Of a DNA stretch of 20,020 nt, positions 1 to 12,571 are shown piece after piece. Position 1 is the stretch's first letter. Every line of letters starts with the position of its first letter. The stretch spans positions 1 to 20,020 of the IMG/VR virus record IMGVR_UViG_3300000176_000080; one strand, given 5' to 3'. A program made the position numbers and the translations under genes. The notes below the pieces were generated by a model. It had not been told where the DNA came from. It ran no database searches and saw only the letters and a list, made by a program, of their open reading frames with translations. Origin of the DNA: a virus.

Positions 1-615
1 TCCAATACTAGGAGTTCCTGTGTTAGATAATTGAATAAAACCGCCACCCCCAGTTGTTGATGAACCACCACTTTGAGTGACGGTAATACTTACTCTGTAA
101 AATCCATTTGCTTGAGCAACAATAGAGGTTGCGTTAACAGTTGCAGAACTACCATTTTGAGTTGATGTTATTGTTCCACCAATTAAATCTACTACTACAG
201 CACCCCATGAACCTACTCCTGAATTGCCATAAATTTTTAAATATGCATATTGATTGGTTAAATATTTTAAAGATGCACTAAAAGTATATGTAATAGCATT
301 TGTTACAGGTGTATACTCACCAATGTAAGGATTAACTGCTACACCTGCTGGAGTTAAAAAAGTTGATGCTGTTGTTGTTCCGTCAGGTGCAGTTGTAGTG
401 TTTCCTGTAATAGTTGAATTAGTTTGCCAAATCCCATTAGTAAATGTTTGCGAATAAGTAAGTAAATTTTGCTCTGCCAATACACTCGTTTTACCATCAT
501 AATATGGTGCAGTCGTTGACCTAGAAAAAGTAACACGAGGATCAAGTTGTTGACTGTTAGCAAAATCAAGTAAAATTGATGGTTTTATAGCGGGAAAGTT
601 AGCAGTTATTGACAT
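1..615 (-). CDS. Fibre/adhesion-like structural protein, N-terminal part (cut by window edge)
   Basis: The frame is open for 205 codons from an ATG at 615-613 to the left edge with no stop, so the gene continues outside the window. GGAG lies about 8 nt before the ATG. The N-terminus reads MSITANFPAIKPSILLDFAN and continues with DPRVTFSRSTTAPYYDG and NLLTYSQTFTNGIWQ. That pattern (LDFANS, then R-x-T-F-x-R-x-T, then ENLLxxSQ.F.N..W) recurs in phage fibre, head-spike and carbohydrate-binding structural proteins. What follows is Ser/Thr/Gly/Val-rich, as expected for beta-sandwich modules. It is the last gene visible in the minus-strand late operon and overlaps the end of the homing endonuclease gene by 10 nt. 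A receptor-binding or virion-surface role is inferred from composition and position. The C-terminal part is not visible. Confidence 0.75.
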   Translation of the reverse strand, partial: MSITANFPAIKPSILLDFANSQQLDPRVTFSRSTTAPYYDGKTSVLAEQNLLTYSQTFTNGIWQTNSTITGNTTTAPDGTTTASTFLTPAGVAVNPYIGEYTPVTNAITYTFSASLKYLTNQYAYLKIYGNSGVGSWGAVVVDLIGGTITSTQNGSSATVNATSIVAQANGFYRVSITVTQSGGSSTTGGGGFIQLSNTGTPSIG

Positions 616-1421
616 TGTTGTTGCTCCTTCAATCTAACAAAATAACGCTTTCTTGATTCACTCATTTTCTTTTTGCTTTCTTCAGTATATCTAAAACCTA
701 TTTTTGCTTCAGATATTTTTTTGCGTGTTTCAGGCGAATTAACTTTGCCTAAATGATTTAATCTTTGTTTTTCTTTTACTTCTGGTCTGTTTAACGCAAT
801 TTTTAAAGACGCACTTAATTTTGCTTTAGTTTCATCACTTGCTTTTCTTCCCTTGCCAGCTTCTGATATTTTTCTTTTTGTTTCATCTGTATGTTTTTTT
901 CCAAAAGACGGATTGTCTGCACCTACATTTTTACCTTTACGATTTTCAGATATTTTTTTCTTTGTTTCTTCCGTATGTGATTTTCCGTAAAAAGGATGTA
1001 ATTCACCTGTCATTTTTGCTACTCTTTTAGCAATTGTTTCAACCGATTGTTTTTTACCATAATTAGGATTATTTGCACCAATTCTTGTAGCAACATACTG
1101 CCCTATTTTTTCTTTGGATTCCTTTGTATGGCGATACCCACTAATCCCATCACCACCATTTGTTGCATTGGTTAATTTATATCCTAATTTTTTTAATTGA
1201 TTAATTCTTTCCATTTCGCAAAGCAAAGATAATTCTTCATCAATATCTTTTGCAACATAATTTACAGTAAAGCCATTTGCTTTATTTACTACATTTTTCC
1301 AATACGCATTTCTTTTATATGGATGGTTTGCTCTATTGCCATGTCCTTTACCAACATAGAAAATCGCACCAGTATCTTTTCTGATGTGTTCATATACATA
1401 GAAATTAGTATTTATCGCCAT
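606..1421 (-). CDS. GIY-YIG homing endonuclease with NUMOD3 repeats
   Basis: A 271-aa protein. Residues 8-10 (YVY) and 21-26 (FYVGKG) match the two halves of the GIY-YIG nuclease motif, with Arg30 in the place of the catalytic arginine and a later CEMERINQLKKLGY segment that may carry the catalytic Glu. From about residue 95 to the end there are about seven copies of a 20-residue NUMOD3-type DNA-binding motif (for example HTEETKKKISENRKG, HTDETKRKISEAGKG, SPETRKKISEAKIG). This is the classic layout of free-standing phage homing endonucleases. I chose the ATG at 1421 because GGAAG lies 5 nt upstream; a TTG at 1433 is the alternative. The gene overlaps its upstream neighbour (DUF5658-like) and its downstream neighbour (fibre) by 10 nt each. 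It is more A-rich than the structural genes around it, consistent with later insertion. It may also act on the intron in the capsid gene, but that is inference. Confidence 0.9.
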   Translation of the reverse strand: MAINTNFYVYEHIRKDTGAIFYVGKGHGNRANHPYKRNAYWKNVVNKANGFTVNYVAKDIDEELSLLCEMERINQLKKLGYKLTNATNGGDGISGYRHTKESKEKIGQYVATRIGANNPNYGKKQSVETIAKRVAKMTGELHPFYGKSHTEETKKKISENRKGKNVGADNPSFGKKHTDETKRKISEAGKGRKASDETKAKLSASLKIALNRPEVKEKQRLNHLGKVNSPETRKKISEAKIGFRYTEESKKKMSESRKRYFVRLKEQQQCQ

Positions 1422-1684
1422 AAAGACTTCCAATTATGAAATACGACTGCAATATAAACAATGATTAAAACAACTAATAAAAGAGGATATTCAAGCCCAA
1501 TGTAATAGCCTAAAACGCCCAACAGAGCCGACTTGATTGCTAAAGCCACATCAACATTGACATATTTAAAGACAAATGCCATGACAGGATTTTGCTCATA
1601 GCCACCTTGTTTTAAGATAGTGCGAGTGGTATACCAATCAAGTAATTGGAGAATAAAAAAGGTTAGGGAGAGAATGTATATCAT
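1412..1684 (-). CDS. Small membrane protein, DUF5658-like
   Basis: A 90-aa protein with about three hydrophobic segments (near residues 2-15, 44-62 and 65-82) and the sequence LLDWYTTRTILKQGGYEQNP near the N-terminus. The DWYTT...GG.E.NPVM pattern is that of DUF5658-type small membrane proteins seen in phages and bacteria; their function is not known. Its ATG overlaps the stop of the 539-aa fibre-like gene (ATGA, 4 nt), and its end overlaps the endonuclease start by 10 nt, so it is translationally coupled within the late operon. A holin or other envelope role is possible because of the position near the end of the structural genes, but nothing in the sequence proves it. Confidence 0.7.
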   Translation of the reverse strand: MIYILSLTFFILQLLDWYTTRTILKQGGYEQNPVMAFVFKYVNVDVALAIKSALLGVLGYYIGLEYPLLLVVLIIVYIAVVFHNWKSLWR

Positions 1685-4521: not shown

Positions 4522-6046
4522 TTAAGCTGCGATACGGCAAGCGAGTTCAGGATAGAGCGGGGCCCATCCGTACAATACATCTAAACGAGTAGGAATACTG
4601 TCGTTGTTAATTGTGTATTGACGAACAATACGCATACTTAAACCGATTTCCTTATCAGAGGCACGACCTGCGAAATGAACACCTTCAGGGAGCTCTAAAT
4701 CTGCTACTGCGAGCGAAAAAGAATTTCTATGCATGATTATATTCTGTGGAGATACTGCACCAGTTGAATTGAACTGAGTTACCGCAGCAGAAGATGATGG
4801 TGAAGGAATCGATACGTTTTGGAACTGGCCAGCAGTAATAACCGCAGGAGATACCACAACAGAAACGCTTGAACCTGAAGCAATCGTAACAGCAGACTTA
4901 ACCACAAAGTTACGGAGCTTGTTTGAACCATACGCTTGACGATTCTGTGGGTTAACTGCGTAAACACCAGCGATCGTGAATGTATCACCGGCATTTAATA
5001 CTAAGTTACCAGTATTGGCAGCAGTCAAAGTGATTGTTGAGCTTGATGCCCAGCCACTTGTTAAGAAACCAGTTGCAGTTGTAGTTGCTACAGATGCAGT
5101 CACAGTAGTTGTGCTGTTATTACCGAATACTTGAGCCTGAACGTTTTGGTCTAATTTCCAGTTCATCCCCGCGGAATCGCGACCCATAAGTCCTTTGCGA
5201 TACTGTTCGCCAATTGCTTCTTGAGGTACGAATAAACCTTTTAAAGAATCAACAATCGTTGCAGATGTGAATGGCTCAACGATGCATGATCTGCGACCAT
5301 CTCTAGGAGCACCTTCAGAATCAAGGTAAGCACCAGCAGTTAGATAAGTAATCAAACCAGTTGGAGGAGTACCAGCAACACCTACAATGTTTGCAGTATT
5401 GAGGGTAGCCATTGCCAATCCATCTCTGTCAATTTTGTTTGCAATCGCAGCGACTGCAGGCTTCAAAACTCTATCGCTGAACATATCTAAAGATAATGCT
5501 AAGTCGGTCGTTGTAAACTGTGTGTCAACGTGGAACTGCGTTGACAAAGTAATAGGTACAGATGATTCGTTAAAATCTTCTACGTTCAGGGCTGGCCCTG
5601 TTGATCCAATAAAGCGTCCAGGTCTCATTCTGTTACTTTCAGTCTTACGACCTACTGACCATTTCTGGCGGTGCAATTTCTTCGAATCGCACTCTAAGGC
5701 TTCTTTAGTTATACCTTAGTTCAGACTATCGCATCTACTTTCGTAGGCTTCTCACTTAGTCGTTCAGGCTGCTTTCGCTTGCCCCTTGTTACCCACTTCT
5801 GGGACTCCAAGTCAATCAGAGAAACTTTTTCGTCCGCACACCTAGTTCTTTTTACGGACGTTTACTGTGTTACCAATCTTACCACCTCAAATGCAAGATT
5901 CACAGTAAAAACTGAGGCAGGCTTTATACCACAGCGAATTGATCGTCATAATTACGATCTACTTCAGAAGTGAATGTTAATTCGTTCTCCAAGACCATCA
6001 ACGCTTCGTTGGTGATCTTAGAAATGGTTAGCAAGTTATTTGCCAT
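4522..6046 (-). CDS. Major capsid protein, P22 coat (gp5)-like, interrupted gene in three exons
   Basis: The real start is the ATG at 6046 (AGGA 8 nt upstream). It gives MANNLLTISKITNEALMVLE and, around residues 33-40, NYDDQFAVV, the conserved N-terminus of P22-type coat proteins. The frame stops at TAA 5926-5924. The next homologous stretch, GGKIGNTVNVR (5886-5854), is in another frame, and the rest resumes at 5625 with RPGRFIGSTGPALNVEDF and runs to 4522. Joining 6046-5927, 5886-5854 and 5625-4522 gives 40+11+367 = 418 aa, close to P22 coat (430). The join DDQFAVV/GGKIGNTVNVR/RPGRF has the spacing I recall for relatives (DDQF.V.GAKIG..INVRKP.R). Other family features are GDTFTIAGVYAVNPQNRQ and the ending RLDVLYGWAPLYPELACRIA. 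The TTG-initiated frame from 5676 starts inside the intron and is not the true start. The protein forms the icosahedral shell on the scaffold encoded upstream. Confidence 0.85.
5626..5853 (-). ncRNA. Group I self-splicing intron in the capsid gene (ORF-less, 228 nt)
   Basis: Elements in minus-strand order. P1: exon end CGTCCGT (5860-5854) pairs with guide GCGGACG (5837-5831), with a U.G wobble at the splice site. P3: TTTCTC (5824-5819) with GAGAAG (5753-5748). P4: CTTG (5811-5808) with CAAG (5788-5785). P5: CCCA/TGGG (5803-5792). P6: GGC/GCC with a GAAA-capped P6a (5783-5767). P7: GACTA (5761-5757) with TAGTC (5728-5724). P8: CTAC-GAAA-GTAG (5746-5735). P9: CTAAGG/CCTTAG (5719-5694). P9.1: GTGCGATT/AATTGCAC (5692-5671). 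P9.2: TCAGT/ACTGA (5658-5639). The last intron base is G5626. P10: AGGT (5843-5840) with ACCT of the 3' exon (5623-5620). Splicing joins CGT to AGA codons in frame (NVR/RPGRF). There is no ORF inside. The subgroup is not assigned. Confidence 0.9.
5861..5909. repeat. Quasi-palindrome spanning the 40-nt insert and capsid exon 2
   Basis: On the plus strand TTTACTGTG (5861-5869) and AATCTT (5875-5880) are answered by AAGATT (5895-5900) and CACAGTAAA (5901-5909): 15 paired bases with one 5-nt bulge (ttacc, 5870-5874) and a 14-nt loop. In the mRNA this hairpin ends just before P1 of the group I intron and holds most of the 33-nt exon 2. A second pairing, CCTCA (5885-5889) in the loop with TGAGG (5913-5917) outside the stem, could give an alternative fold. 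Confidence 0.85.
5887..5926 (-). other. 40-nt out-of-frame interruption in the capsid gene, TAA to TGA
   Basis: After the codons for DDQFAVV the capsid frame meets TAA (5926-5924). Homology resumes at GGT-GGT-AAG (5886) in a frame shifted by one, immediately after an in-frame TGA (5889-5887). Removing exactly these 40 nt restores an uninterrupted protein with the spacing expected for relatives; 43 or 46 nt would also restore frame but shorten the protein. It is too short for a group I intron. It contains a CAGT-TTTT-ACTG mini-hairpin, and its 3' half is the inverted copy of the following exon. It could be an RNA-level skipped element, a fold-back insertion or an assembly error. The take-off (GTA) and landing (GGT) codons do not match, unlike T4 gene 60 bypassing. 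Confidence 0.6.
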
Positions 6047-6076: not shown

Positions 6077-6928
6077 TTACCTAATCCTTTTAGCTTGTCT
6101 CATTGCTTTGTACTGCGAGTAAGTCATCTTATCTGTATCAGTAATAATGGCTTGCTCACTTGTACCAGCTTTGATTGGACTAATCGGGGCAGGTGCTTTG
6201 GACTTCTGGGCAACAGATTTAACAGGTTCAGTCTTTTCAAACTTTGCCTCCAATTTACCTATTTCTCTTAAAGCAGAACTTAGACTTGATTTAGATATTT
6301 TCTCTGCTAGTTCTTGGTTTTCAGCCAAATGATAAAGAATTCTAGGACCAACATCTGATTCTAAAATTGCATCTCTCACTTGATCGCTTACCACAACATC
6401 AGAGGAAGCTACCATATCATCAAAATCAGGCAATTCAGATTTAGTTGCTTCAAGTTTCTTGTTCCAAGTATCAATAACTTTGGCACGTTCCGCTTGTTTC
6501 ATTTTTTCTACATCTTCTTGCCTTGCTCTCATTACAGCGTTTTCAGCACTCCAATCAGCCAATGCTTCAGCGTATTCAAACGCATCAACAAATTGATCTG
6601 GTCTTGGTTTCTCATCTCTGCTCTGCTCTTTAGGAACAGCCTGTGACTTGATTGCCTTTAACTCTTGCTCTAATTCTTGTGTTCTGATTCTTGCTTGTTC
6701 AGCTTCCTGTTTAGCAAGGTCACGTTGCTTTGTGACTTCATCAAAACGCATCTTTACTTTAGGTTTTGGTTCTTCTGTTGCTTTTTCCTCGTTCTCGACA
6801 ACTGGTTCACTCTGTTCAATTTCAGCAACTGGCTCTGTTTCTACAGCCTCAGTCGGAGAATCTTCAGCTAAACCTAATTTATTTGCGTAAAACTCGGCAC
6901 TATTTTCACTTGTTAAAACATTGGCCAT
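6077..6928 (-). CDS. Scaffolding protein
   Basis: A 283-aa, highly charged protein with no Cys. Residues 22-60 are Glu/Pro/Val-rich. Residues about 60-100 (VTKQRDLAKQEAEQARIRTQ and on) form a long coiled coil, and a second helical charged region spans about 120-225. The C-terminus is basic (YSQYKAMRQAKRIR), matching the basic helix-turn-helix end of P22-type scaffolds that binds coat protein. Its place between portal and coat is the standard position for scaffold. GGAG lies 9 nt before the ATG. It is probably read from the promoter at about 7006-6978. The assignment rests on composition and synteny, because scaffold sequences diverge strongly. Confidence 0.82.
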   Translation of the reverse strand: MANVLTSENSAEFYANKLGLAEDSPTEAVETEPVAEIEQSEPVVENEEKATEEPKPKVKMRFDEVTKQRDLAKQEAEQARIRTQELEQELKAIKSQAVPKEQSRDEKPRPDQFVDAFEYAEALADWSAENAVMRARQEDVEKMKQAERAKVIDTWNKKLEATKSELPDFDDMVASSDVVVSDQVRDAILESDVGPRILYHLAENQELAEKISKSSLSSALREIGKLEAKFEKTEPVKSVAQKSKAPAPISPIKAGTSEQAIITDTDKMTYSQYKAMRQAKRIR

Positions 6929-6951
6929 CTTTCGAAGCTCCTCAGTAATTT

Positions 6952-6968
6952 CCTGTTAAACGAACAGG
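6952..6968 (-). promoter_or_regulatory. Hairpin in the leader of the scaffold/capsid transcript
   Basis: CCTGTT (6952-6957) and AACAGG (6963-6968) form a 6-bp stem with a 5-nt loop. It would sit within a few nucleotides of the 5' end of a transcript from the promoter at 7006-6978, where hairpins can protect mRNA from decay. It has no U tract and is 16 nt before the scaffold ribosome binding site, so it is unlikely to be a terminator. Confidence 0.5.
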
Positions 6969-6977
6969 CACGTTTGA

Positions 6978-7006
6978 ATCTTATTACTTTAAATAATTAT
7001 TGACAA
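6978..7006 (-). promoter_or_regulatory. Candidate sigma70-type promoter for scaffold and capsid genes
   Basis: Minus strand: TTGTCA (7006-7001), 17-nt spacer, TAAGAT (6983-6978), with an expected start near 6971. The rest of the 232-nt gene-free stretch 6929-7160 is very AT-rich, with no reading frame I would support. The promoter is predicted by pattern only; the -10 matches consensus at 4 of 6 positions. Confidence 0.42.
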
Positions 7007-7160
7007 TATTAAATTTCACATAAAGAAAACTTATACTTATTTAATAAATAAATGCGAATTCCTTGCTTATGCCAACATTCAGCTGTTTCAGGAATTGCAT
7101 ATATTTTTCCTATACAAATATAAATTTGAATTAAATATTTAATTTGAAAATTAAAATACA

Positions 7161-7340
7161 TTACTTTTTATTTTGTTTTTCATTTAAATCATGCAATGCT
7201 GTGTCTACAGCTTGTTTTTTTCCCATTATAGATTTTAAACGCTCAAATTCAGGATGGGTTTTAGCTCTTTCATGCTGTTCTTTATTGTATTTTTTTGCTA
7301 ATTCTTTAGATATATAATCTGCGTGATTTAATTCTTTCAT
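7161..7340 (-). CDS. Small charged protein, 59 aa, unknown function
   Basis: The ATG (7340-7338) overlaps the portal stop as ATGA, giving a 59-aa protein that starts MKELNHADYISKELAKKYNK and ends in a Lys-rich tail. It is hydrophilic and predicted helical, without Cys or membrane segments. Translational coupling to the portal gene and ordinary codon use support a real gene. Its position between portal and scaffold suggests a role in head assembly, but no family is recognised. About 230 nt of AT-rich non-coding sequence follow. Confidence 0.65.
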   Translation of the reverse strand: MKELNHADYISKELAKKYNKEQHERAKTHPEFERLKSIMGKKQAVDTALHDLNEKQNKK

Positions 7341-9400
7341 ATGGCCCTTTCTGTAGTTTCTGCTGACGCTAAATGTGCCTGTTGATGATCCATTCTTGCT
7401 AATAAAATTGCTATTTCCGCTTTCATACGTTCAATTTCTTTTTGTGTTTCTGTCTTAACTATGGTGTCATGTGCCATTGTTTCAACACGCATTTGCGTAT
7501 CGTGTCCCTTAGTTGTCTGACGCATGAGTTCGCGTTTAGTTTCGTTATCTTGTTTGACTTGCTCAATGTCTTGACGTTGTTGAATCATCATTTGAGCTTG
7601 TTGTAACTGTTGAGTTAATTGTTGAACTTGTGCTTCACCTTGCTTGAGCTTCATTTGAATTGCAGGTGGTATATCTGACATATCATCAATCTGAGCTAAT
7701 GGGTTATTAATTGCCATACGATCAGCAATAACATCAGCACCAGGGAAGTCCATATTTCTGACAAGTAAATCACCAGCAACTTGTACAAGTGATGGCTCTG
7801 CTTGGAATAATGCCATCATCGCTTCTACTGATTCTTGACGCTTCGAGTTATAGCCTGGTCCTGTATCCATCACAATGTCATATTCACCTACGCTCATGTC
7901 GTTCAAAATACGCTCAATGCCAGATTCATCCATCTTGCGTTCATTAATCGTCATAATCTCAGGCTTACCATCATCGCCAATGATTCGCATGGCTCTTTCG
8001 GTGTCATAAATATGAGGGATTAAATCAAGGATTACTCTACCAACTTGCCTGATACTACGAGTTAAATTGTCGTAATAGTGCATATTGGTCATGTCAGCTT
8101 GCATCTGCTGACCTTGGATTGCTTTACCGGATTGAATGCCTTGCGGTAACTGATTTGGATCGTAAATGCCAATAACTGCTTGTAAATCTAAATTCATTGA
8201 CTGCATTGCAGCCATTACTCCAGTAGGGGGTTGTTCTGGTGATTGTCTTACTGGTGGTGGAGCTGGTCTGCCATCAATGTCAGTCTGCTTGTAACGTAAA
8301 TAAGGCTTACTCGCATTGTTCGCTTCAGCCCATTCTTGTTCATGGCCTTCATCTTGTCCTTCAGCCAATATCCATTTTGCTTTGGGTGCAAGTGCGACAG
8401 TTTCAGTCAGAGCAGTTGACCAATAGTTATACATCCTTTGCGGATCTTTGGCCATGCGAACTAAACCAAAACGCTTATGTTTGCCTTGAACTATGGTGCT
8501 TTGACCATATACAGGGATAATTGGAATATATCGACCTGCCCATTCGCCCTCTTCAAGGATTTGCATCGCTGTCAATTTGCACCATTTAATCTTTTTACGG
8601 ACTGTTGTGCGTTGATTAATAACTTCAACACCTAATTTTTCCATTAACTTTTCATTAACTTCATCAGCGTAGATGCTTGAGCCATCTGATAACTGCATTA
8701 ACTCAACGGATTCTCTGACTGAATACCAATACTCAGCAATTCTGATTTCTTCTTTTTGTACCCAATCACCCATCACATCGCCAGTACCACGACTAACAAA
8801 ACCTTGGTCTATTTCAGCATCAGGATACATTGCACTAAATGATTTCTTACTAATAAGCGTTGTAATTAAACAACGCTCTGCATCTGAGCCATCAGCCATA
8901 ATGGAATTGGGATCAAAATACACAGTAAAAGGATTTTCAATTGGTCGAATATAAATTTCTTGGTCAAAGCTATCATCCTTCACATAATCGGTATGGACTC
9001 GGATATATCCCCAGCCCATGCGAACTGCATAATCCACAGCATTAATATAAGCCTGGTCAGCGTCAGACTGCAATTCAATATGTCGGCACATCCCAGTAAT
9101 GATTTGTGCCTGTTTTTCATCGGTTTGCGTATTCATGCCATGCGCTTTAATTCTAGGTCTTTGCTCTCGAATCTGATTCACAATCTGCCGGCAATACGCA
9201 TCGACTTTATTAATGGTCAAGCATGGTCTGGCTTCAAGTAATCGACTGTTCTGCACATCAACAGGCCATTGATCACCATTGCTAAAACGCACATCATCTA
9301 AGGCTTCAGCACGATTATTGGAGTCTACATCATTCACTTGACGTAAAAACTCCATTGCTTGATAGATTCTGTCATCTTGCTCAATGATTTCTTCGGCCAT
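7337..9400 (-). CDS. Portal protein, P22 gp1-like
   Basis: A 687-aa protein, close to the 725 aa of P22 portal. It forms the dodecameric ring through which DNA enters and leaves the head, and it contacts the large terminase. Family features are the N-terminal YQAMEFLRQVNDVDSNNRAE with RFSNGDQWP, then RPCLTINKVDAYCRQIVNQI (about residues 58-77), RPRIKAHG, GWGYIRVHTDY, IENPFTVYFDP, and NYWSTALTETVALAPKAKWI, where the central helical region begins. The C-terminus (about 585-670) is a Gln-rich coiled coil (QVQQLTQQLQQAQMMIQQRQ), as in the barrel of P22-like portals. AAGGG lies 7 nt before the ATG. It follows the large terminase by 26 nt and overlaps the 59-aa gene by 4 nt. Confidence 0.93.
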   Translation of the reverse strand: MAEEIIEQDDRIYQAMEFLRQVNDVDSNNRAEALDDVRFSNGDQWPVDVQNSRLLEARPCLTINKVDAYCRQIVNQIREQRPRIKAHGMNTQTDEKQAQIITGMCRHIELQSDADQAYINAVDYAVRMGWGYIRVHTDYVKDDSFDQEIYIRPIENPFTVYFDPNSIMADGSDAERCLITTLISKKSFSAMYPDAEIDQGFVSRGTGDVMGDWVQKEEIRIAEYWYSVRESVELMQLSDGSSIYADEVNEKLMEKLGVEVINQRTTVRKKIKWCKLTAMQILEEGEWAGRYIPIIPVYGQSTIVQGKHKRFGLVRMAKDPQRMYNYWSTALTETVALAPKAKWILAEGQDEGHEQEWAEANNASKPYLRYKQTDIDGRPAPPPVRQSPEQPPTGVMAAMQSMNLDLQAVIGIYDPNQLPQGIQSGKAIQGQQMQADMTNMHYYDNLTRSIRQVGRVILDLIPHIYDTERAMRIIGDDGKPEIMTINERKMDESGIERILNDMSVGEYDIVMDTGPGYNSKRQESVEAMMALFQAEPSLVQVAGDLLVRNMDFPGADVIADRMAINNPLAQIDDMSDIPPAIQMKLKQGEAQVQQLTQQLQQAQMMIQQRQDIEQVKQDNETKRELMRQTTKGHDTQMRVETMAHDTIVKTETQKEIERMKAEIAILLARMDHQQAHLASAETTERAI

Positions 9401-9426: not shown

Positions 9427-10695
9427 TTAACTCATCCATGAGCCACGTTCAATATTAACTGGTCTTTTTACTGTTTTCTTTGGCTCATTTACTAAAAGAC
9501 CTAGCATCCTAAATGCATCTGCACCATGGGAATATTGGTCATGGAGTGGCTTTTGTGACCAAGCACCGCTCTCATCCACATCATACCGATAGTGTCTAAG
9601 ACATTGCAGGCCATCGCCACAGTTCTCACGATCAAACACGCATTTATTAAAAATAGTTCTGGCTGCGTTGATGGAGTCAGTCACCGGCACTCTTGGCAAT
9701 ATCTGAACTTTGTACCCAGCACTACGCACAATTTCCTCAATCGATCGCCCTGAGCCTAAACTTTTAGCAGCTGCATCATGTGGCAGCCACAGCGTATCAA
9801 AGTGATAACCAAACTTTTGCATCTCAGCCAAATACCAACTAATCGTCTGTTGATTGGCCTGCATATATCGAATTAATCGGATTTCTAAACCAATAAACTG
9901 CACAAACCAAATGGCAGTATGATCAGCCCAGCCAAGGTCAAAGACTGCATGAACTGGCTTAATGGCATCGTATGGCACTCTAGTGATTCGGTTATCCATC
10001 TCAGCCTGTTGCATCTCCTTGGCAAAAATAGCACCATCAACAGTAACTCGGCACATTCCTTCCCAGACTGTATTGTAGGATTCAGGATCACGATTCTTGA
10101 GTGAGATGCGCTCAAGATTCAAAGTTTCCGGAAACCAAGGATTATCGGACCAATTAATCTTTTGGATAATTGCGTTCTCAGGTGGATGCATCACAAAACG
10201 CTGATAAGTTTCATCGGTTTCCAGCTCTGGATTGAATGAAACCCATATTTCAGAGTTTTCTTTACGAATGGTTGGAATCAATATATTCCATGAGGATTTG
10301 GTCACAGACTGTGCTTCCTCTATCCAGCAATAGTCCACACCTTCGTAAGATTTGATATTGGCAGTATTGTTTTTCAGGCCTACAAAACTAAACTCTGTAC
10401 CATTCTTGCCCTTGATATTGGCTTGTAAAATTTCATAAAAGGATTCCAATCCCAACAATTCAATCTGATCACTTAGTAATTTATGCACCGAATCACGCAT
10501 CGATGTCATGTATTCCCTGGCACATAAAATGCGAATAGGTGACTTAGCACCTAAAATAAGTAATGCTTTAGCTACTGAATGGGATTTTCCTGCACCACGT
10601 CCACCCCAGTAAACCTTATAACGCGATTTGTCGAACAAGGTCGACATCTTAAATGGGAATTCAGCCTTGGCAATTGCTCCATCAACGTCACTCAT
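9427..10695 (-). CDS. terL: Terminase large subunit, PBSX/Terminase_3-like
   Basis: A 422-aa packaging motor. The N-terminal ATPase has Walker A GGRGAGKS (residues 31-38), Walker B YCWIEEA (122-128, with the catalytic Glu pair) and a coupling motif near IWVSFNPELE (150-159). The C-terminal RNase-H-fold nuclease carries VFDLGWADHT (251-260, Asp253 and Asp258 as likely metal ligands), LWLPHDAAAKSLGSGRS, and DQYSHGADAFRM near the end with the last acidic ligand. The length fits the PBSX-type family. The ATG overlaps the small-terminase stop by 8 nt. It cuts concatemeric DNA and pumps it through the portal encoded next door. Confidence 0.95.
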   Translation of the reverse strand: MSDVDGAIAKAEFPFKMSTLFDKSRYKVYWGGRGAGKSHSVAKALLILGAKSPIRILCAREYMTSMRDSVHKLLSDQIELLGLESFYEILQANIKGKNGTEFSFVGLKNNTANIKSYEGVDYCWIEEAQSVTKSSWNILIPTIRKENSEIWVSFNPELETDETYQRFVMHPPENAIIQKINWSDNPWFPETLNLERISLKNRDPESYNTVWEGMCRVTVDGAIFAKEMQQAEMDNRITRVPYDAIKPVHAVFDLGWADHTAIWFVQFIGLEIRLIRYMQANQQTISWYLAEMQKFGYHFDTLWLPHDAAAKSLGSGRSIEEIVRSAGYKVQILPRVPVTDSINAARTIFNKCVFDRENCGDGLQCLRHYRYDVDESGAWSQKPLHDQYSHGADAFRMLGLLVNEPKKTVKRPVNIERGSWMS

Positions 10696-10975
10696 TTGGC
10701 TTTACGAACATCACTTGAATGCTATTAACAGACTCTCCATCGGTGGTAATGTCTGTGGATTGTGTGGCTTTCCCATCTAATCTATCTGCTAAAAAAGATA
10801 CTGCCCATGGATCTCCTTCTTCAGCTTTATCAACAACCTTGTCAGCAGCAGCTCTTAATTTATGCGGGTTTTGTGCAATAGATCGTCTGAGCGCATCTAA
10901 AAATGGTTTATTTTTACTCTGGTTTTTATTACCAGGTTGGCCACCTTTGGAGTTATTCGTATTTTCGTCTATCAT
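10688..10975 (-). CDS. Putative terminase small subunit (DUF5681-like)
   Basis: A 95-aa basic protein with GGQPGNKNQSKNKPFLDALR at residues 11-30, then KLRAAADKVVDKAEEGDPWA and VSFLADRLDGKATQ. The GN.N..KN..W/F.DALRRA and L...G...A...L.DRLDGK pattern is frequent in small phage proteins encoded just before the large terminase and commonly annotated as terminase small subunits. The 8-nt overlap with terL supports this. DNA binding to the packaging site is inferred from the family and position. The ATG at 10975 is the only reasonable start. Confidence 0.75.
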   Translation of the reverse strand: MIDENTNNSKGGQPGNKNQSKNKPFLDALRRSIAQNPHKLRAAADKVVDKAEEGDPWAVSFLADRLDGKATQSTDITTDGESVNSIQVMFVKPNE

Positions 10976-10993: not shown

Positions 10994-11218
10994 TTATGGT
11001 TGTTTTTCTTCATCAGCCGGAGCAAATTTAACTTGAATTTCATCCGTTGTAGACTCTTGTTTTTCCTCAACATTTTGAGGTTGTGGAGGCTTCGGTGTTA
11101 CTTGTTTATTAACATGAGCTTGAATGTATTCAATGAGTCCCCTTGCATATTTGTGTGGCACTTCATCCAAATACTTCATCATTTCATTAATTTGATCGAT
11201 GTGAAAATTGATAATCAT
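10994..11218 (-). CDS. Small phage protein, 74 aa, unknown function
   Basis: A 74-aa protein. The N-terminal 40 residues (FHIDQINEMMKYLDEVPHKY, then ARGLIEYIQ) are predicted helical and resemble short phage proteins of the type ...L..LPY....LI..IQ. The rest is a Pro/Gln/Glu-rich disordered tail (PKPPQPQNVEEKQE). The ATG overlaps the stop of the 46-aa gene by 4 nt (ATGA), and AAAGG lies about 9 nt upstream. It sits just upstream of the small terminase. The function is unknown. Confidence 0.65.
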   Translation of the reverse strand: MIINFHIDQINEMMKYLDEVPHKYARGLIEYIQAHVNKQVTPKPPQPQNVEEKQESTTDEIQVKFAPADEEKQP

Positions 11219-11355
11219 TTCTTTTTACCTTTCTTTGCTTCACGTTGTACATTAAGTGCTATTGCTACTGCTTGTTTCTGTGGTTTACCTGCTTCTATCT
11301 CTTTTTTGATGTTTTTAGGCACAACTTTTTCTGATTTAGATTTAATTAATGGCAT
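11215..11355 (-). CDS. 46-aa basic micro-protein conserved in phages
   Basis: ATG at 11355, stop TGA at 11217-11215. The protein starts MPLIKSKSEKVVPKNIKKEI and has the core GKPQKQAVAIALNVQREAKK. The pattern MPL.KSKS.K.VS.NI..E..AGKP.KQAVAIAL is one I recognise from many environmental phages, where it is a short Lys-rich helical protein of unknown role (nucleic-acid binding is plausible from charge). It overlaps the GroES gene by 14 nt and the 74-aa gene by 4 nt, so all three are translationally coupled. Confidence 0.75.
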   Translation of the reverse strand: MPLIKSKSEKVVPKNIKKEIEAGKPQKQAVAIALNVQREAKKGKKK

Positions 11356-11653
11356 TTACATTCTCCTGTTCAAAGCAAATATCAGCCCAACTCATGACCA
11401 GATAACGCTCATTGTTTTCAAAGTATTCAGTATATTTTAAATATTCGTCTTTGCCCATTGTGCCAAATCTGACGAATGATCCGACTAAAACCGGCATTTC
11501 TTCACGTCTGCCATTGGGTAATTTCTTGCCTGGTCCGACTGCGACCACAGTTCCCATATTGTCTTTCTCATCCATAATCACATGAATCAAAGACGATTTA
11601 ACTCGTTCAATGGGTTTGACTACAATTTTATCGTGTAAAGGTTTAAGCAACAT
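11342..11653 (-). CDS. GroES-like co-chaperonin
   Basis: A 103-aa protein of Cpn10 length. It opens LLKPLHDKIVVKPIER (compare the GroES start .IRPLHDRV.VK). A flexible segment at about residues 17-31 with HVIM takes the place of the GroEL-binding mobile loop (IVL in GroES). GTVVAVGPGK (34-43) matches G.V.AVG.G., PVLVGSFVRF matches VKVGD.V.F, and YLVMSWADI matches the C-terminal (L)IM.E.DI. It would cap host GroEL and adapt the folding chamber, as T4 gp31 does for the gp23 capsid protein; here the P22-like coat is the probable client (inference). It overlaps the Cys-rich gene upstream by 11 nt and the 46-aa gene downstream by 14 nt. No GroEL is seen in the window. Confidence 0.88.
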   Translation of the reverse strand: MLLKPLHDKIVVKPIERVKSSLIHVIMDEKDNMGTVVAVGPGKKLPNGRREEMPVLVGSFVRFGTMGKDEYLKYTEYFENNERYLVMSWADICFEQENVNAIN

Positions 11654-11897
11654 TTCTTTTGGGCCTTCCTGCTTTGGGTTTCATTGCAGCCACTTCAGCT
11701 TGAATGGATTCTTTGGTTACTTCTTGAACAATGTTGTCCAATGCTCCAAATGTTGAACTCTGGGCATATTCGCCACAGAGGTCTGTAGAATGCCTGTTTT
11801 GATAAGTAGGGTATCTGCGACATGAACCTAAAATATTATTGGGTTCGCTAAAATATTTACAGTTTCCGCAGTTACTTTTAAAATGATTCTCAGACAT
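11643..11897 (-). CDS. Small Cys-rich protein, probable zinc binding (84 aa)
   Basis: An 84-aa protein. The first half carries CGNCKYF (C10, C13), GSCRRYP (C26) and LCGEY (C41), a four-Cys set spaced like a small zinc ribbon or treble-clef-like module. The pattern C..C.YF...GxCRRYP...CGEY recurs in short phage proteins. The second half is helical and ends in a basic tail (KPKAGRPKRN). It may bind DNA or protein; the function is unknown. It overlaps the GroES start by 11 nt and lies after the hairpin at 11924-11958. Confidence 0.7.
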   Translation of the reverse strand: MSENHFKSNCGNCKYFSEPNNILGSCRRYPTYQNRHSTDLCGEYAQSSTFGALDNIVQEVTKESIQAEVAAMKPKAGRPKRNVA

Positions 11898-11965: not shown

Positions 11966-12307
11966 TTAGTCTTGTGGATAAGCAGCGCGTTTGTGGTCAT
12001 AAACGACTTTTTCAGAGCTTCCACCCTTCATTTCGCCTAACATACCATCGTTTTTACCCATGTGACTAGCATCTCTTGCACCAATGCCATCAGCCTTGCC
12101 CATTGCAACGCCACCAACTAGTTTAGCTTTACGCTCACCAGATGTATCGCTAGACGTTGCACCTTTAGGAATCATTTCGCCTGATTCGCCTTTAGTACCT
12201 TTAGTGCTGTTTGGCCCAGACTCTGAACCTTTTTTCATACCTGATTTATCGCTTGAAACAACACCCTTTGGCATTTTTTCACCACTTGCTGGTTTACCGT
12301 AATTCAT
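11966..12307 (-). CDS. Low-complexity Gly/Lys/Ser-rich protein, unknown function
   Basis: I place the start at the ATG 12307-12305 (MNYGKPASG), because AAGGA lies about 9 nt upstream; an ATG at 12352 in the same frame lacks a good ribosome binding site. The 113-aa product is rich in Gly, Lys, Ser and Met and probably disordered. It has an internal duplication, GEKMPKGVVSSDKSGMKK and GEMIPKGATSSDTSGERK, and later repeated GKADG/GKNDG motifs. There is no Cys or hydrophobic core. It precedes the hairpin at 11924-11958. The function is unknown. A low-complexity virion or nucleic-acid-associated protein is possible but not shown. Confidence 0.65.
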   Translation of the reverse strand: MNYGKPASGEKMPKGVVSSDKSGMKKGSESGPNSTKGTKGESGEMIPKGATSSDTSGERKAKLVGGVAMGKADGIGARDASHMGKNDGMLGEMKGGSSEKVVYDHKRAAYPQD

Positions 12308-12388
12308 TTTTAATTTTCCTTTGCAAAGAAATCTCAACGCGAGATAACTCATTTTATATCAAAAGTTTTATTTTGTGGGAAACAAAAT

Positions 12389-12571
12389 TTAATCCCAAAA
12401 TATTTCTTCAACAACAACTTTTTTTTCTTGATATTTGGTGCATCGATTTTTTAAGTCTGGAGTCCACCAAGGATCACCAGCCTTGCATTGCCCTTTCCAA
12501 GTTTTGTATTCACCATTGGCCAATTCATTCGGCATTGACACACAATTTTTGCAATAAACTCGATCATCCAT
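12389..12571 (-). CDS. Small Cys-rich protein, probable zinc binding (60 aa)
   Basis: A 60-aa protein, MDDRVYCKNCVSMPNE at the start, then GQCKAGDPWWTP and NRCTKYQEKK. Four Cys (C7, C10, C29, C44) are arranged like a small zinc-binding module similar to that of the 84-aa protein at 11643, so the two could be distant relatives. GGAG lies about 7 nt before the ATG. It is the first gene after the AGGTRTGTCA repeat region and is preceded by the terminator of the primase-helicase gene, so it needs a promoter in the repeat region. The function is unknown. Confidence 0.68.
   Translation of the reverse strand: MDDRVYCKNCVSMPNELANGEYKTWKGQCKAGDPWWTPDLKNRCTKYQEKKVVVEEIFWD

Follow-up and report, generated by a model that had tools for sequence, protein, structure and literature searches.

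There is a gene for a GroES/Cpn10 co-chaperonin on the minus strand of the window, which is the whole 20,020-base stretch of DNA that was analysed. The gene order on this strand is ORF128, a Cys4 protein, GroES, a small ORF, a putative small terminase subunit (TerS), the large terminase subunit (TerL), a P22-like portal, a scaffold, and a P22-like coat. The features of this cluster are as follows.

11966..12352, minus strand: 128-aa ORF of unknown function (ORF128), the conserved upstream neighbour (tblastn across loci)
11643..11897, minus strand: HiPIP-like Cys4 protein (CxxC-x12-C-x14-C) that carries a GRPK tail; overlap of 11 nt between the end of this gene and the start of GroES
11342..11653, minus strand: GroES/Cpn10 co-chaperonin gene, ATG start, 103 aa (PF00166, phrog_3188, AlphaFold2 model, structure matches, purifying selection)
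11555..11602, minus strand: mobile loop, residues 18-33, with limits chosen by us (D8-to-G34 distance, low pLDDT)
11579..11587, minus strand: probable GroEL-binding triplet I23-H24-V25 (pattern in 80 of 82 proteins; parallel with E. coli mutants)
11483..11533, minus strand: roof hairpin, residues 41-57, kept with 17 residues (clade alignment)
10994..11218, minus strand: small ORF that separates GroES from the putative TerS (ORF list, locus comparison)
10688..10975, minus strand: putative TerS, proposed from its position (sub-threshold match to PF18932 DUF5681, E 0.0035)
9427..10695, minus strand: TerL (PF04466)
7337..9400, minus strand: P22-like portal (PF16510)
6077..6928, minus strand: scaffold (phrog_8865)
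4522..6046, minus strand: P22-like coat gene (P22 coat profile), interrupted twice, at 5926-5887 (40 nt) and at 5853-5626 (228 nt, group I-like)

The preliminary description of this DNA had placed a 103-aa GroES upstream of terminase and capsid genes, and the profile matches bear this out. The downstream TerL, P22-like portal, phrog_8865 scaffold, and P22-like coat were each recovered with Pfam or PHROG profiles. Upstream of ORF128 there is also a 60-aa cysteine-containing ORF (CxxC...C...C; 12389-12571, minus strand) that has no Pfam match.

The 103-aa protein matches the Pfam family PF00166 (Cpn10) with an E value of 4.8e-10 and 39.8 bits, the curated cut-off being 21.1. It also matches phrog_3188, 'co-chaperonin GroES', at 1.9e-11. 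A phmmer search of the PDB returned solved GroES chains (best 3nx6, 1.5e-9), and the GenBank relatives of the protein are annotated as co-chaperonin GroES. The AlphaFold2 model, made from 46 input sequences (the window's and those of IMG/VR loci), has a mean pLDDT of 79.6 and a predicted GroES beta-barrel fold. Its top structural matches are GroES and Hsp10 proteins (Foldseek E 8.1e-8 to 5opx; VIA Z up to 12.8). T4 gp31 is a more distant match, with a Foldseek E of 0.029, VIA Z of 8.1 (2cgt) and 7.9 (1g31), and 11-12% identity. The comparison of a predicted structure with GroES and gp31, which the preliminary description had proposed, therefore came out in favour of a GroES fold. A scan of IMG/VR with the window GroES yielded 131 relatives. 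The dN/dS ratio was 0.04-0.10 in four of five comparisons and the fifth was saturated; three of the four usable comparisons have a dS of 2.3-2.8, which is near saturation. A chance ORF is excluded by the number of relatives together with the low ratios, and the gene is under purifying selection as judged from these sequences. Sequence and predicted fold together confirm the ORF as a genuine member of the GroES/Cpn10 family.

GroEL (PF00118) was not found in the 20,020-base window record. It was also absent in a profile search from 28 of 28 related records, some of which may be fragments, while the same search detected GroEL in 14 of 14 control genomes. One of the negative records, L002, has 35,664 bases, and all 16 window proteins that were queried match it at 100% (rounded; tblastn). 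The earlier claim of a phage GroES without GroEL is upheld by these searches. Since no phage GroEL was found, the phage GroES, if it is a working co-chaperonin, must use the GroEL of the host. It very likely acts as a lid for host GroEL.

The mobile loop can indicate how such a lid might bind. By sequence and by low pLDDT, the protein appears to have the flexible loop and hydrophobic triplet of Cpn10, and the loop is shorter than usual. The pLDDT falls below 50 at residues 24-27, which is consistent with a flexible loop in the modelled protein. Among 82 different clade proteins, the distance from D8 to G34 is 26 in 72, 27 in six, and 25 in four. E. coli GroES and the GroES proteins of two candidate-host bins all have a corresponding distance of 30. 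The loop of the window protein is four residues shorter than that of E. coli GroES, two on each arm. Because it is shorter than in the GroES proteins compared, binding to GroEL could be weak. R17, S20, E29, and G34 are invariant among the 72 clade proteins with a distance of 26. In the same 72, position 22 is I, V, or L in all, position 23 is I or L in 70, and position 25 is V or I in 70. Position 24 varies freely: besides the H of the window, it may be I, E, Y, F, A, D, L, W, or another residue. The conserved loop pattern of the clade is [ILV]-[IL]-x-[VI].

A hydrophobic-x-hydrophobic triplet starts two to four residues after S20 in 80 of the 82 clade proteins, L091 and L137 being the exceptions; as the sequences are related, this count is descriptive. 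In 74 of these 80 the triplet begins 15 residues after D8 and 11 before G34, and for I25 of E. coli the distances are 17 and 13. In E. coli GroES, I25D or L27D is reported to abolish the interaction with GroEL and V26D is not (PMC5575113). We infer that the docking triplet is I23-H24-V25 because the flanking positions are conserved and position 24 is free, which matches the need for I25 and L27 and the tolerance of V26D. The triplet would then sit two residues nearer the barrel on each arm than I25-V26-L27 of E. coli. The preliminary description had pointed to HVIM, in place of the usual IVL, as the mobile-loop segment that may show how host GroEL is bound. That reading is probably out of register, as positions 24 and 26 are not conserved in the family. 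The roof segment is full in 61 of the 82 clade proteins and has 8-10 residues in the other 21.

The window lid shares with bacterial GroES the fold, a similar length, the roof hairpin, and a hydrophobic-x-hydrophobic loop triplet. It differs in that it lacks SGG before the triplet, has additional residues around DEYLK in its C-terminal half, as seen in an alignment, and is encoded by a phage in which no GroEL was found, in addition to having the shorter loop. With T4 gp31 it shares a related fold (11% identity to 1g31) and being a phage-encoded lid without GroEL. According to PMC6318259, gp31 has a mobile loop of 22 residues compared to 16 in GroES, has no roof, and provides a cage about 8% larger for the 56-kDa gp23. 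The window lid, in contrast, has a loop shorter than that of E. coli GroES and keeps its roof. A gp31-like enlargement of the cage was rejected, since the loop is shortened by four residues instead of lengthened and the 17 roof residues are kept. The gp31-type cage adaptation to which the preliminary description had appealed is therefore not supported, gp31 having the opposite features in the same source.

Phage GroES proteins as such are already known. RB49 is a T4-like phage. Its lid CocO is reported to be able to replace both GroES and gp31 (PMC5028025), and it can be likened to the window lid by this description as another phage-encoded lid. GroES is listed among 13 core genes of a marine podophage group, the HTVC023P-type pelagiphages, in PMC9599517; these belong to a different phage group, and the likeness is one of GroES presence. 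A phage GroES is also known from jumbo phage CBB (PMC5259590), and a paper on siphovirus B8b already mentions GroES in myo- and podoviruses (PMC4294664). Closer to the window is Xanthomonas phage PBR31 (MT119766, L083, GroES at 6891-7214), which has the same order of GroES, small ORF, TerL, portal, scaffold, and P22-like coat. Its coat is 51.8% and its GroES 36% identical to those of the window. The PBR31 GroES differs in having a longer loop (D-to-G distance 36) and the motif SAGILV, and no Cys4 partner was found by tblastn. The recorded host of PBR31 is Xanthomonas campestris, so this cultured relative is usable as a laboratory model. What is new here is the short docking loop in the clade and a lid that is decoupled from the coat; no description of a short loop or of lid exchange was found in a search of open-licence PMC papers.

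The coat gene itself is interrupted twice. The 40-nt insertion (5926-5887, minus strand) lies between GTG GTA and GGT GGT AAG, and its length is not a multiple of three. TAA follows directly after the upstream frame, TGA stands directly before the downstream frame, and the ends can pair. The same total gap is found in L002/L125, which are one contig, and in L086. The insertion is too small to be a group I intron, and no codon match for ribosomal bypassing was seen by eye. The 228-nt insert (5853-5626, minus strand) has a 5' exon that ends in CGT, an intron end in G, and a P1-like pairing. Inserts homologous to it are present at two other coat-gene sites, in L050 and L082 (MW202674), and 112 of 117 sequences have no insert at the compared stretch (window included; some contigs fetched twice). 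The ends of the 228-nt insert and its homologues at other sites suggest a group I intron. At gathering scores Rfam gave no family in the window, and a search near the coat interruption that allowed E up to 1 gave none either. There is also a 275-aa ORF (606-1433, minus strand) with four stretches of PF07460 NUMOD3 repeats. It probably encodes a homing-endonuclease-type protein and is located far from the coat intron.

The Cys4 gene appears to be coupled to the lid gene in most loci. A cysteine-spacing pattern was applied to 105 phage loci whose sequence extends at least 600 nt beyond GroES on the upstream side (five contigs were fetched twice). In 79 of them the Cys4 ORF and the GroES start overlap by 4-20 nt, and in 6 the ORF lies 146-189 nt upstream. 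It was not detected by this pattern within 600 nt upstream in the remaining 20; in one of these, L068, tblastn found it 1.3 kb upstream. Among 40 Cys4 members nine positions never vary, the four cysteines included, and conservation of the tail's G-R-P is 90% or more. The tail is mostly an AT-hook-like GRPKK. The HiPIP profile matches 24 of the 40 members at E up to 1, with a best value of 1.6e-4 and 0.095 for the window member, below the Pfam cut-off. The AT_hook profile matches 11 of the 40 at E up to 1 (best 0.014). The model of the Cys4 protein is of low confidence (pLDDT 66.1) and had no PDB match at E 0.001 or better, the best being 2y8n_B at 0.41.

The occurrence of the lid was explored from both ends of the cluster. 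Among the best 80 of the 131 IMG/VR relatives found with GroES, TerL lies downstream on the same strand in 71, and the other nine hold less than 1.2 kb after GroES. The P22 coat profile matched 22 of the 28 related records. The six misses are jumbo phage BF, four contigs with less than 4.8 kb of sequence left after GroES, and L021, in which tblastn found a partial coat. The coat protein was also used as a query, in order to avoid selecting on GroES, and the best 80 loci listed were analysed. Of these coat-selected loci, 29 have more than 1.2 kb upstream of TerL, and GroES is present in that stretch in 29 of 29. Their coats are at least 81% identical, and the 1.2-kb threshold was set after the data were seen. 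No GroES is present in L102, L113, and L145, which have 1.02-1.16 kb upstream of TerL, or in others with less. Such loci cannot be judged, because the lid sits 0.96-3.9 kb upstream of TerL in the GroES-selected loci. Contigs outside the best 80 of the GroES search account for 24 of the 29, some of which may be among its 51 further relatives; the other five are on contigs within the best 80. GroES looks like a core gene of this coat lineage by sequence comparison.

GenBank contains 45 phage records with a related coat, of which 19 were searched for GroES with two profiles, Pfam and A2, each at E up to 1. The permissive cut-off was used because the Pfam profile missed the phage GroES of L167 at E 0.001. 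Both searches gave the same four positive records. GroES was found in all three records with a coat at least 51% identical and in one of the 16 sampled records with more distant P22-like coats. The exception is DSL-LC05, in which GroES abuts the portal gene. Rhodoferax phage P26218 is one of the distant records in which neither search detected it. A lack of detection in distant records falls short of proof of absence. P22-like coats in general do not seem to need a phage GroES.

Pairwise identities can indicate whether the lid follows the coat. They were compared for 53 loci that have the full set of four genes, the number left from 62 once identical loci had been removed. The head genes correlate with one another (TerL-portal r 0.67, TerL-coat 0.64, portal-coat 0.53). 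The correlation of GroES is 0.22 with TerL, 0.09 with the coat, and 0.54 with the portal. As the last value is about that of portal with coat, the decoupling is clear for coat and TerL and less so for portal. The loci L105 and L111 have TerL 92.5%, portal 91.6%, and coat 93.1% identical, yet their GroES proteins are 28.8% identical. DNA similarity between them takes in part of the Cys4 gene (L105 330-448, 75%), is lost from 449 to 763, and is back from 764 (79%). GroES of L105 occupies 491-772, and the similarity resumes at its end. Further small upstream stretches differ, including about 0.9 kb extra in L111, so the upstream region is a mosaic and GroES is not the sole difference. The nearest relatives of the L111 lid are those of L094 (81%), L143 (79%), and L142 (78%), and those of the L105 lid are L109 (92%) and L106 (87%). 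In AU tests on quick trees, with clades named after the pairwise identities had been seen, concatenated TerL, portal, and coat reject L111 with its lid type, L088, L094, L142, and L143 (p-AU 8e-45). The GroES tree, from a short alignment with long branches, rejects L111 with its module relatives L105, L106, and L109 (p-AU 2e-4). The simplest reading is an exchange of the lid gene between phages whose head proteins are closely similar. Strongly accelerated divergence of GroES is the alternative.

Some clues to the host are present. A scan of genome contigs with a single conserved pattern yielded two related phage loci, L166 and L167, in bins whose titles name an uncultured beta proteobacterium and an uncultured Burkholderiales bacterium. 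Both bins also have an ordinary GroES and GroEL. These contigs carry phage genes and may be mis-binned, so that a beta-proteobacterial or Burkholderiales host is only suggested by the two MAG contigs. A recent capture of the lid from such hosts is not favoured, because the short loop is common to all 82 clade lids and is missing in the bins' own GroES.

It is rather likely that in an infected cell the lid caps host GroEL and phage proteins fold in the phage-lidded cage, head proteins such as the coat probably among them. The phage GroES would form a ring, presumably a heptamer, which would bind host GroEL and compete with host GroES, and phage proteins would then fold in the cage that it closes. 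The coat, which the preliminary description had taken as the probable client, is the most obvious candidate by neighbourhood and abundance. Some P22 coat variants depend on GroEL/ES. A stronger form of this idea, in which the lid is dedicated to the coat and the two co-evolved on the pattern of gp31 and gp23, is possible but doubtful. The two genes are neighbours, and GroES accompanies the coat in every judged locus of the coat-selected set (29 of 29 among the best 80) and in the three GenBank records with coats at least 51% identical. Plain vertical inheritance of the cluster would lead one to expect such co-occurrence too, and GroES was detected in just one of the 16 sampled distant records. 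The GroES-coat correlation of 0.09, against 0.64 for TerL with coat, and the 93% identical coats with 29% identical lids also argue against co-evolution, as does a loop length that runs opposite to gp31 (PMC6318259). Very different lids on nearly the same coat suggest that the lid is probably tuned to host GroEL more than to the coat, a reading drawn from the comparison of lids with coats.

It is unlikely that the lid mainly takes over host GroEL, starving host clients or stalling the cycle, with phage folding as a secondary matter. The shortened loop of all 82 clade proteins would fit this, since affinity or cycling may differ from host GroES, and so would the lack of a detected phage GroEL. 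The gene, however, lies beside terminase in the head cluster, which suggests late expression, and features of a working lid persist, namely the hydrophobic triplet and, in 61 of the 82 proteins, the whole roof. Still less probable is that the GroES fold has been reused without GroEL, for example as a part of DNA packaging or of the virion together with the coupled Cys4/AT-hook protein. The stop/start overlap with the Cys4 gene in 79 of 105 loci and the position of GroES, which adjoins terminase and in DSL-LC05 abuts the portal gene, could point this way. But the triplet and the low-confidence loop are retained, and GroES is kept in the 20 of the 105 loci for which a search of 600 nt upstream gave no Cys4 ORF. 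A lid for host GroEL that serves the folding of phage proteins is the preferred reading.

The usual model for phage GroES is T4 gp31, which as a lid makes the cage larger for a large capsid protein, whereas this freshwater lineage of lake phages shortens the docking loop instead. Natural pairs of the L105/L111 type make it directly testable whether a lid is matched to its client or to host GroEL. As a tentative proposal, which we hold to be less than probable, GroES may be an exchangeable cassette for host adaptation, with the coat and packaging module kept and the lid swapped. If this is true, short-looped lids with or without a full roof would fit different host GroELs, and the lid gene would help to set host range through protein folding.
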